Origin: Flavobacteriaceae bacterium
GTDB lineage: Bacteria > Bacteroidota > Bacteroidia > Flavobacteriales > Flavobacteriaceae
DNA: 34,776 bases
Direction of reading: 5' to 3'
NCBI GenBank assembly: GCA_947478365.1
Contig: CANJWG010000008.1
Location: forward strand, 1 to 34,776
Of the stretch, positions 26,235 to 33,290 are shown one piece after another; position 1 is the first letter of the stretch, and the number at the start of each line of letters is the position of its first letter. The notes below the pieces were generated by a model. The model worked only from the letters and a program-made list of their open reading frames with translations, was not told the origin of the DNA and ran no database searches. A program made the position numbers and the translations under genes.

Positions 26235-26323
26235 TTTACCACAAAGAACACAAAGAAGGCAAAACGGTCACAAAGATTTTTCTTGGTGAGCTTCGTGTAA
26301 CCTTTGTGTACTTAGTGGTTAAA
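26235..26323. repeat. Imperfect inverted-repeat element, copy A (no ORF)
   Basis: Left arm accacaaagaacacaaag and right arm ctttgtgtacttagtggt (16/18 complementary); lies between two genes. Confidence 0.8.
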
Positions 26324-26333
26324 TAAAATCAAA

Positions 26334-27965
26334 ATGAGAATAAAACTATACATATTATTTTTTCTTTTATCGACTTCGCTTTTTGCCCAAAAAGTGACGA
26401 CTTCAGTTGATACCACCAAAAACAAAATCGGAGCCGAATTCAAACTGACTTTAAAAACTGACGTTGATACATTATCCAAAGTAAAATTTCCAGAAGCGAA
26501 GAATTTTGGTGCTTTAGAAGTAATTCATTCCTATAAAATTGACACGGTTAGAAATGGAGCTCGTTACGAGTTAATCAAAAAATATGGTTTAACCCAATTC
26601 GACAGCGGAAAATATACCATTCAAAGAATTCCAGTTCTAATCAATGGAAAACCTTTTTTTTCTGATAGCATCAAAGTAGAAGTTAACGATATACAAGTCG
26701 ATACACTAAAGCAAAAGATGTATGACATCAAAGACATCGCAGAAGTTGAAAGTCCGATAAGAACCTGGTGGATTTATCTTTTAATCTTCTTTGCTATAGG
26801 GATTGCAGGTTATTTTATTTATCAATTCATCAAGAAAAGACAAAATCAACCAAAAGATGAAGTCATTGTTTTCAAATCGCCTATAGAAAAAGCAACGACT
26901 TTACTACAGCAATTGGAAATCAAAGAGCTTTGGCAAAAAGGCGAAATCAAACATTATTATTCAGAACTAACCGATATTGCACGTAATTACATCGAAGAAG
27001 AAATCAATATTCCGGCTATGGAAAGTACGACTTCAGAGCTTATTGACGAATTGCGAAAAGCCGCCAAACAAAAGAAACTCAAACTCTCTAACGAAACCGT
27101 TGAAAATCTGGAAAAAGTTTTAAAGCAAGCCGATTTGGTAAAATTTGCCAAAGTAAAACCGCTTGATTTTGAAATTGAAGAAGATAAAAAACGTATTTCA
27201 AGTTCTATTGTAATCATTCATAAATCAATTCCCGAAGTTGTTGAAAATAATGACGAACTGGCTTTATGGAACGAACAGCAAAAAGAGTTAGCTCGTTTAC
27301 AAAAATTGAAAAAACAAAAGCGCATTCGAATTATTTCGACAATAGGAATCATATTGGGAATGTTGCTGCTTTTTGTTTTTGGCTTACTTTATTTCAAAGG
27401 AGTCGATTATGTAAAAGACAAATTCCTTGGTAATCCAACCAAAGATTTAGTCGAAGGGCAATGGGTTTATAGTGACTATGGAAATCCGGGCGTAAGAGTC
27501 GAAACTCCAAAAGTATTAAAACGAATAGATGCTACAAAAACACTCCCAAAAGATGCTATGGCGCTGATTAAAGAAATGCAAACTTTTGGATACGGAAGCT
27601 TATTAGAAGATTTTTATATCGCAGTTTCTACAGTAACTTACAAACAGGAAACACAACTAGATTTGGATAAAACAGCTGAAGGCTACCTAAAAATTATGGA
27701 AACTCAAGGTGCGCAAAACATTATCATGAAGACGGAAGATTTTGATACCCAAAAAGGAATTTCCGGAAAGAAAGCTTATGGAACGATGACCGTTTTAGAC
27801 AAGATTAAAGGCAGGTCAGCCAAAATGTATTATGAAGTATTGCTTTTCAGTCAGAATGGCGGTTTGCAAACTATAATGGTAATGCATCGTGAAGACGATA
27901 AATACGGACAACAAATTGCTGAAAGAATGTTGAACTCAGTCGAATTACAAACAGCAGAACAATGA
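26334..27965 (+). CDS. BatD-like membrane protein of the Bat operon (signal peptide, BatD/DUF4381-like N-terminal half, TM segments)
   Basis: 543-aa ORF; N-terminal 'FAQKVTTSVDTTKNKIGAEFKLTLKTDVDT', TM 'WWIYLLIFFAIGIAGYFIYQF'. Overlaps the BatA start by ATGA. Confidence 0.7.
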   Translation: MRIKLYILFFLLSTSLFAQKVTTSVDTTKNKIGAEFKLTLKTDVDTLSKVKFPEAKNFGALEVIHSYKIDTVRNGARYELIKKYGLTQFDSGKYTIQRIPVLINGKPFFSDSIKVEVNDIQVDTLKQKMYDIKDIAEVESPIRTWWIYLLIFFAIGIAGYFIYQFIKKRQNQPKDEVIVFKSPIEKATTLLQQLEIKELWQKGEIKHYYSELTDIARNYIEEEINIPAMESTTSELIDELRKAAKQKKLKLSNETVENLEKVLKQADLVKFAKVKPLDFEIEEDKKRISSSIVIIHKSIPEVVENNDELALWNEQQKELARLQKLKKQKRIRIISTIGIILGMLLLFVFGLLYFKGVDYVKDKFLGNPTKDLVEGQWVYSDYGNPGVRVETPKVLKRIDATKTLPKDAMALIKEMQTFGYGSLLEDFYIAVSTVTYKQETQLDLDKTAEGYLKIMETQGAQNIIMKTEDFDTQKGISGKKAYGTMTVLDKIKGRSAKMYYEVLLFSQNGGLQTIMVMHREDDKYGQQIAERMLNSVELQTAEQ

Positions 27966-28963
27966 AAGAGGTAAGCTTCTTAAATCCTGAGTTTTTCTGG
28001 TTGTTTTTATTACTTCCAGCAGTTGTCTTATGGCAATTATGGAAAAGGAAACAGCAATCACCAACATTGAAAATAAGTTCGGTCAAAGGTTTCAAAGCAC
28101 AAAAATCTTTGTTAGCCAAACTGAAACCGTTCTTATTTGTATTTCGATTATTAGCGTTGAGTTCTTTGATTATTGCAATGGCTCGACCAAGAAAAGTAGA
28201 TATCAGCAGCCAAACCAAATCGACTAAAGGAATTGACATTGTAATGGCAATTGACGTTTCGGGAAGTATGTTGGCAAAAGATTTAAAGCCAAACCGAATG
28301 GAAGCTTTGAAAAAAGTAGCCGAAAACTTCGTGGAAGGACGCCCAAATGACCGAATCGGAATTGTAGTTTATGCTTCTGAAGCGTATACTAAAACGCCTG
28401 TTACAAGCGATAAAGCGATTATTCAAGAAGCCATTCAAAGTATTAAATACGATAATGTTTTGAAGGACGGAACCGGAATCGGAATGGGATTGACTACAGC
28501 CGTGAATCGTTTGAAAGACAGTAAAGCCAAAAGTAAAGTGATTATTCTTTTGACTGATGGTGTAAACAACGCAGGTTTTATTGAACCTGAAACAGCTTCC
28601 CAAATTGCCCTTGAGTACGGAATAAAAGTATACACCATAGGAATTGGAACCAATGGCAACGCTATGTTTCCATATGCTTATGCGCCAAATGGCGGTTTTT
28701 TATTCCGGATGATGCCTGTTGAAATTGATGTGAATTTATTGCAGACAATAGCAAAAAATACCGGCGGAAAATATTTCAGAGCCAGCAGCAATAGTAAGTT
28801 AGAATCGATTTATAAGGAAATAAATAAACTGGAAACGACCGAAATTCAAGAGTTGAAGTTCTATGATTATGATGAAAAATACAGGATATTTGTTTGGATT
28901 GCCGGAATTTTGGTCTTGATAGAATTTGGTTTACGAAATACAATTTATAGAAGTTTTATATAA
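27962..28963 (+). CDS. batA: VWA domain-containing protein BatA
   Basis: 333-aa ORF, N-terminal TMs, VWA MIDAS 'MAIDVSGSMLAKDLKPNRMEALK', 'LLTDGVNNAG'; first VWA gene in a MoxR-DUF58 operon. Confidence 0.88.
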   Translation: MKEVSFLNPEFFWLFLLLPAVVLWQLWKRKQQSPTLKISSVKGFKAQKSLLAKLKPFLFVFRLLALSSLIIAMARPRKVDISSQTKSTKGIDIVMAIDVSGSMLAKDLKPNRMEALKKVAENFVEGRPNDRIGIVVYASEAYTKTPVTSDKAIIQEAIQSIKYDNVLKDGTGIGMGLTTAVNRLKDSKAKSKVIILLTDGVNNAGFIEPETASQIALEYGIKVYTIGIGTNGNAMFPYAYAPNGGFLFRMMPVEIDVNLLQTIAKNTGGKYFRASSNSKLESIYKEINKLETTEIQELKFYDYDEKYRIFVWIAGILVLIEFGLRNTIYRSFI

Positions 28964-28966
28964 AAG

Positions 28967-29068
28967 TTTAAACACAAAGAACATGAAGAAGTCATAAAGC
29001 TCACGATGTTCAATTTAAAAAATAATCTTTGTGTACTTAGTGAAAATCTTAGTGCGCTTAGTGGTTAA
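28967..29068. repeat. Imperfect inverted-repeat element, copy B (no ORF)
   Basis: tttaaacacaaagaacatgaagaag ... ctttgtgtacttagtg...cttagtggttaa. Confidence 0.75.
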
Positions 29069-29101
29069 TAAAGAATTCAAGAGAGGTCTTATATAAAAAG
29101 T

Positions 29102-29199
29102 GTAAACACAAAGAACACGAAGAAGGCGCAAAGCACAAGATGTTCTAATTAATATTCTTTGTGCACTTAGTGAAAAAACTTAGTGCGCTTAGTGGTTAA
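29102..29199. repeat. Imperfect inverted-repeat element, copy C (no ORF), tandem to copy B
   Basis: gtaaacacaaagaacacgaagaaggcgcaaagcacaagatgttc...ctttgtgcacttagtg...cttagtggttaag. Confidence 0.75.
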
Positions 29200-29207
29200 G
29201 AAAAAAT

Positions 29208-32815: not shown

Positions 32816-33290
32816 TCTTAACCACGAAGAACACTAAGAAGACGCGAAGAACACGAAGCTATGATTACAGAAGAGGAAATATCGAAAATAGTTTTTGAAT
32901 GTGCTTTAAGAGTTCACAAAGTTCTTGGCCCGGGTTTGCTTGAAAGTGCTTATGAAGAATGTCTATTTTATGAGCTTAAAAAGACAAATCTGAAAGTCGA
33001 AAAACAGAAACCGCTTCCTTTGATATATGAAGAAGTCAATTTAGAAGTTGGTTACAGAATAGATATAATTATTGAAGATAAATTTATAGTTGAAGTAAAG
33101 TCTGTAGAAGCATTAAATGATGTTCATTTGGCACAATTACTTACCTATCTGAAATTATCGGACTGTAAATTGGGATTATTAATTAATTTTAATGTTAAAC
33201 TTTTAAAAGATGGTGTGCGGAGAATTATCAATGGTGCGCTTTAAAATCTTTGTGCTCATAGTGCCTTCTTTGTGAACTTCGTGGTTAAAT
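32816..33290 (+). mobile_element. Candidate inverted-repeat-bounded element (copy D) carrying a GxxExxY protein gene
   Basis: Left arm ttaaccacgaagaacactaagaag (32818-32841) versus reverse complement of right arm ttaaccacgaagttcacaaagaag (33265-33288): 21/24 match. Arms enclose ORF 32861-33244. Confidence 0.6.
32861..33244 (+). CDS. GxxExxY protein, PD-(D/E)xK nuclease superfamily-like
   Basis: 127-aa ORF with 'RVHKVLGPGLLESAYEECLFYEL' (GLLESAY = GxxExxY) and 'GYRIDIIIEDKFIVEVKSVEAL' (D...ExK). Confidence 0.92.
   Translation: MITEEEISKIVFECALRVHKVLGPGLLESAYEECLFYELKKTNLKVEKQKPLPLIYEEVNLEVGYRIDIIIEDKFIVEVKSVEALNDVHLAQLLTYLKLSDCKLGLLINFNVKLLKDGVRRIINGAL

Follow-up and report, generated by a model that had tools for sequence, protein, structure and literature searches.

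The DNA that was analysed, below called the window, comprises 34,776 nt of contig CANJWG010000008.1 from assembly GCA_947478365.1 (genome G000). It carries a bat-type operon in the order MoxR - DUF58 - BatD - BatA - BatB - TPR - BatD-like - [D: GxxExxY] - TPR/SH3, and the spacers of this operon contain four palindromic elements, designated A to D (Table 1). Copies A to C are 89 to 102 bp long with next to no loop between their arms, while the loop of copy D, located between the BatD-like and the TPR/SH3 genes, holds a gene.

Table 1. Palindromic elements and associated features in the window
Feature	Position	Strand	Description
Copy A	26235-26323	.	Arm-only palindrome between the DUF58 and BatD genes
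Copy A, left heptamers			CACAAAG AA CACAAAG AAGG CAAAACG GT CACAAAG
Copy A, right heptamers (reverse strand)			CACTAAG TA CACAAAG GTTA CACGAAG CT CACCAAG
Tandem duplication B/C	28927-29206	.	Unit 1, 28927-29075 (batA end and B); unit 2, 29062-29206 (C)
Copy B	28967-29068	.	Arm-only palindrome between batA and batB
Copy C	29102-29199	.	Arm-only palindrome, tandem duplicate of B
Copy D	32818-33288	+	GxxExxY gene enclosed by two arms of four heptamers each; cassette of 471 bp
GxxExxY gene of D	32861-33244	+	127 aa; TIGR04256, PF13366 PDDEXK_3

In the window, a repeat finder assigned the left arms of A to D to one direct-repeat family and the right arms to another, and all four copies could be aligned at both arms. 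The pattern CACNAAGNNCACNAAG, with up to two mismatches, had 16 matches in the window compared to 2.2 expected, and none of 100 shuffles reached this number. The first-pass annotation had described A, B and C as ORF-less copies of an inverted repeat shared with D. Its coordinates for the three copies were exact, the repeats are far above chance, and A to D form one element family with TTAACC and the heptamers in common. All copies are intergenic and no gene is interrupted, as it had also observed. The four copies that it counted in the operon are real, but they do not correspond to four insertions. B and C arose by a single tandem duplication with a unit of about 135 bp, which carries about 24 nt of the 3' end of batA and scored 173, while 200 shuffles gave at most 54. 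The operon therefore records three insertion sites, and the three ORF-less copies represent two of them. Rfam gave no match, and no rRNA genes were found in the window; A to D are located in spacers of a protein operon.

The genome G000 (1.9 Mb, 85% complete) was inventoried by pattern search and by reading of individual loci. CACNAAGNNCACNAAG without mismatches occurred 22 times, while the reversed control pattern gave no match. Ten of these 22 matches fell in 7 kb of the bat operon, where 0.08 were expected. At least five further arm-only elements and several half elements were present in other spacers. The genome has one GxxExxY gene, that of copy D. On one strand in another genome, G036, the reversed control pattern had 11 matches.

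Arm words and the product of the GxxExxY gene

An arm starts with TTAACC (or TTTACC or TTTAAAC), followed by four direct CACNAAG heptamers, and the other arm is mirrored. The heptamers of an arm are placed at steps of 9, 11 and 9 bp, which gives about 21 bp per pair and a phase of about 10.5 bp; the sum of the outer and middle steps peaked at 21 bp, corresponding to two turns of B-DNA. Arms that are kept as a stem should agree at the free positions more often between mirrored than between non-mirrored heptamers. Mirrored heptamers agreed in 42 of 84 cases compared to 43.6 for non-mirrored ones (21 elements), and among 42 loci there was no excess of mirrored identity at any of the seven positions. 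Pairing of the arms was dropped as the conserved feature for this reason. Together with the 21-bp steps, the missing excess indicates that the word is kept, and on one face of the DNA. The arm pattern thus points to a protein that would read the recurring word along a single face of the DNA, although a hairpin substrate would also be compatible with it.

The protein encoded in copy D is a typical full-length member of the GxxExxY family (TIGR04256, E = 1.5e-43, 147.8 bits with a cut-off of 35; PF13366, E = 1.7e-41), a large family without known function. The name-giving motif reads GPGLLESAY, and the RecB/Cas4-type catalytic residues H19, D68, E78-x-K80 and Q92xxxY96 are invariant. A sequence search of the protein against solved structures gave no significant match. 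The AlphaFold2 model (pLDDT 95.8) was nearest to the folds of SSO0001 (PDB 4ic1; a Cas4), LHK-Exo, lambda exonuclease and MGME1, with a marginal best E value of 1e-3. By its residues and its modelled fold, the product is predicted to be a PD-(D/E)XK nuclease that belongs to the RecB/Cas4 type. With dN/dS values of 0.03 to 0.11 in comparison to relatives, the gene is, as judged from its sequence, under strong purifying selection, and the predicted nuclease residues are intact.

The comparison was extended to about 150 related genomes. Of 91 GxxExxY loci in relatives, 70 had a flanking inverted repeat better than every shuffle. The heptamers around these genes were CACNAAG, CGCNAAG, CACNGAG, CGCNGAG or CACNGAT, at steps of 9 or 10, and the left and right words were identical in 56 of the 70 loci (18.8 by chance). 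When the arm word was mapped on the nuclease tree it required 17 changes, compared to a mean of 38.6 and a minimum of 32 in 2000 shuffles, so the word follows the tree. Other word families had fixed symmetric ends (GCCAC...GTGGC and TTACAC...GTGTAA). In wider taxa (Bacteroidota, Ignavibacteria, Planctomycetota, Anaerolineae and others) significant inverted repeats were found at 58 of 79 named GxxExxY loci, a set which includes records from metagenome bins, so that individual taxon assignments could be incorrect.

Copy number and turnover in related genomes

The copy numbers were compared in 91 genomes of the genus, 71 with and 20 without GxxExxY, by statistics that ignore shared ancestry. The maxima were 22 matches for the CAC pattern and 154 for the CGC pattern; in genomes without GxxExxY the numbers never exceeded 3 and 4, respectively. 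Five or more CGCNAAG matches were present in 39 of the 71 genomes with GxxExxY and in 0 of the 20 without (p = 3e-6, kinship ignored), and five or more CACNAAG matches in 15 of 71 and 0 of 20 (p = 0.035, kinship ignored). Genomes with a D-type nuclease had a median of 9 CAC matches compared to 1 in the others (p = 1.4e-4), and those with the CGC-type sister nuclease had 15 CGC matches compared to 4 (p = 8e-4), both values again disregarding kinship. The first-pass annotation had raised the question whether the number of ORF-less copies tracks with GxxExxY genes; abundant copies were confined to genomes with GxxExxY, and genomes without the gene thus did not contain equal numbers. The CGC copies of G042 were ORF-less and dispersed, and some of them formed tandem arrays with a period of about 178 bp, such as the one at L336 (G042:C1:1506178-1507778).

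The spacers of A (S1), B/C (S2) and D (S5) were compared in 40 relatives. At S1, G013 carried the same A-like ORF-less element, G026 a decayed one and G021 a CGC element, while G071, G051 and G049 had cassettes with a four-helix-bundle gene. G013 has no D-type gene; its best GxxExxY match is just 53% identical to D. At S2 the two closest relatives lacked a B/C-type copy: the nearest one, G071, had a different short palindrome. The S2 spacer of G021 measured 5 bp, G005 and G031 contained one ORF-less 170-bp element, and G047 a GxxExxY cassette that shares 83% identity with D. D-type cassettes occupied S5 in G071, G029, G070, G059, G031, G033 and at L245-L248, while G021 had an ORF-less CACGAAT palindrome there. 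Many species had spacers of 5 to 10 bp, free of hairpins, at equivalent places. Presence and absence thus differ between related species at orthologous spacers, as would be expected from the insertion polymorphism that the annotation had considered.

The cassette at L246/L247 was 87% identical to D, while the adjacent BatD-like gene was about 51% identical; in G033 the respective values were 75% and 58%. For L246/L247 this is best explained by a transfer of the cassette into the same site, although differences in rate would also be possible. On the other hand, an element was kept at site q2, a spacer between convergent genes, in all nine relatives in which both flanks could be aligned. This apparent long vertical retention, like that of the A-like copy common to G013, would fit slow turnover or use by the host as well as mobility. 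Among the orthologous spacers compared, no clean empty site that would show a target duplication was found. The TTAA at both ends of the elements is suggestive of such a duplication, and in several species the stop codon of BatD overlaps with the left TTAA. It may, however, belong to the arms, as other word families also have fixed symmetric ends. An apparent empty site at q3 of G049 was discarded because its NN is an assembly gap, which lies inside a short perfect hairpin; at L345 (G049 C19, about 36580) the NN of an assembly gap falls precisely in the middle of a perfect, short CGC hairpin.

Several spacers of the F. johnsoniae-like group were read closely. Two of them contained palindromes with different words nested in each other's loops, and in one the element was retained by all relatives that could be aligned. 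Nesting up to three deep was seen in F. johnsoniae-like genomes at L364, L371 and L387 (site q4) and at L375-L382 (site q3).

Proposed origin and mobility of the palindromes

The reading that we favor, with moderate confidence, is that A to C are non-autonomous repeats of a REPIN-like kind, with the PD-(D/E)XK nuclease rather than a RAYT as the probable cognate enzyme. The loop of the gene-bearing form, copy D, would encode the small RecB/Cas4-like nuclease, and A to C would be the arm-only forms. The nuclease, probably as an oligomer, would bind the heptamers of its own arm word and cut or process the palindromes, with DNA or a hairpin, single-stranded or cruciform, as the substrate. The element may then be copied by repair or recombination to a new site in a spacer or in the loop of a palindrome, and arm-only copies would be mobilised by the nuclease in trans. 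Against this reading, the orthologous spacers yielded no clean empty site, several CAC-rich genomes (G005, G032, G051 and G078) have no D-type nuclease, nucleases of the RecB/Cas4 type are not known to act as sequence-specific transposases, and RAYT-like Y1_Tnp genes occur also in the high-copy CGC genomes.

The first-pass annotation had considered that A could be an internally deleted form of D, since a 10-mer of A (26289-26298) matches one of D (32851-32860). The match is true but trivial as evidence for a deletion, because the heptamer itself is repeated and the 10-mer is CACGAAG plus three bases. That A, B and C descend by internal deletion from D, or from a former gene-bearing copy at their own site, appears unlikely. 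The left arms of A to D do agree at free positions as well (the AA and AAGG/AAGA spacers), the spacer of B/C holds a GxxExxY copy in G047, and relatives contain decayed GxxExxY genes that are truncated or interrupted by stops. However, A to C have no remnant of the ORF, and the A-like copy at the same spacer of G013 occurs without a D-type gene. Arm-only copies, moreover, reach up to about 150 pattern matches compared to a handful of nuclease genes per genome, which makes separate deletions unlikely for most of them. Taking A to C for non-autonomous relatives of D was right in kind, but not with regard to their origin, as no sign of an internal deletion was seen. The palindromes could instead be RNA hairpins kept by the host as stabilisers of mRNA 3' ends, processing sites or terminators, the mobile phase being old and presence or absence the result of decay and replacement. 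We consider this rather doubtful, although all copies are intergenic, many are located at 3' ends of genes, copy A folds far above shuffles (z = -5.5; B, -1.8; C, -2.5), and the q2 element is retained as described. The fold of B is marginal in comparison to shuffles, there is no pairing-specific conservation at mirrored positions, many species do with hairpin-free spacers of 5 to 10 bp at the same place, and the tracking of words with nuclease clades would be left unexplained.

Two other known kinds of element were considered. If the arms were chiefly an RNase III-type stem and movement occurred via RNA, the palindromes would be similar to intervening sequences (IVS). The same two sizes occur, about 100 nt without and about 450 nt with an ORF, and 23 of the 28 S23p/TIGR02436 genes of the genus share the arm architecture, with significant inverted repeats and short direct words that differ from those of the GxxExxY arms. 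The 23S rRNA IVS of Coxiella likewise carries inverted repeats at its termini, and tandem heptamers precede its S23p ORF (PMC4990558). Nevertheless, this explanation is improbable, as the copies of the window are located outside of rRNA, their arms are imperfect at free positions and show no covariation, and the 21-bp phase suits B-DNA. A very remote alternative is that the palindromes are conventional REPINs that depend for their movement on a RAYT (Y1_Tnp) encoded elsewhere, with GxxExxY as a passenger. Of 12 genomes with repeats that were tested, 10 had RAYT-like Y1_Tnp genes, but Y1_Tnp (PF01797) had no match in G000, which is 85% complete, and none in G120, which has 30 CAC matches. The single Y1_Tnp locus examined had neither CAC nor CGC arms, and the arm word tracks the phylogeny of GxxExxY.

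In many bacteria the spacers are filled with REP-like repeats, for which RAYTs are the best-known mobilising enzymes. The REPIN/RAYT system consists of short intergenic inverted palindromes in many copies, each group being tied to a specific gene (Bertels and Rainey 2011, PMC3116915). The elements described here are similar in that they are intergenic palindromes, occur as inverted doublets in many copies and in tandem clusters, form gene-linked groups and have a proposed non-autonomous mobility; their copy number is moderate in G000 (22 matches) and reaches 154 elsewhere. They differ in that the linked gene codes for a PD-(D/E)XK protein of the RecB/Cas4 type and not for a Y1 HUH transposase, with no RAYT found in G000, and in that the arms consist of four direct heptamers with a phase of about 10.5 bp. 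By this analogy the A to D system is REPIN-like in its logic but not a member of the REPINs, and its putative enzyme is unrelated to RAYT. With MITEs, copies A to C share a length of about 90 to 100 bp, terminal inverted repeats, the lack of an ORF, dispersal, and termini common to a candidate autonomous element, D. Unlike MITEs they have no parent transposase, the enzyme being a nuclease, and no target-site duplication was seen; a MITE in the strict sense, with the terminal repeats of a transposase and a target duplication, was thus not demonstrated in the orthologous spacers. The 23S rRNA IVS with an S23p ORF of Coxiella and Leptospira (PMC4990558) resemble the elements in that they occur with and without an ORF, have inverted repeats at the termini around a small ORF and contain tandem heptamers in the arm, and four-helix-bundle relatives share sites in the bat operon. 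A to D, in contrast, are located in mRNA spacers and have another protein family and another word.

More tentatively, GxxExxY proteins may be the cognate enzymes of selfish, REP-like palindromes that are widespread but unrecognised, in Bacteroidota as well as in other phyla. Every nuclease clade would have its own heptamer code, spread gene-bearing and arm-only copies, and favor spacers and palindrome loops, which would give rise to nested hairpins; the S23p cassettes would be a parallel class with the same architecture and sites. In the parts of the literature covered by searches for GxxExxY, PDDEXK_3 and Flavobacterium MITEs or REPs, no description of the flanking arms or of their link to the protein tree was found. 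If the proposal is correct, a second, unrelated enzyme family would be tied to REP-like repeats by a changing word, the large GxxExxY family would gain a role, and much of the palindromic spacer DNA of Flavobacterium would be explained. It would also provide a natural DNA-recognition code that can be tested, with matched sets of nuclease clades and target words already present in sequenced genomes.

The four-helix-bundle cassettes occupy one of the same sites as palindromes A to D; in G071 such a cassette was located in the spacer of copy A (L391, about 1042-1528). TIGR02436 genes with their own word-built inverted arms were found at L084-L113.
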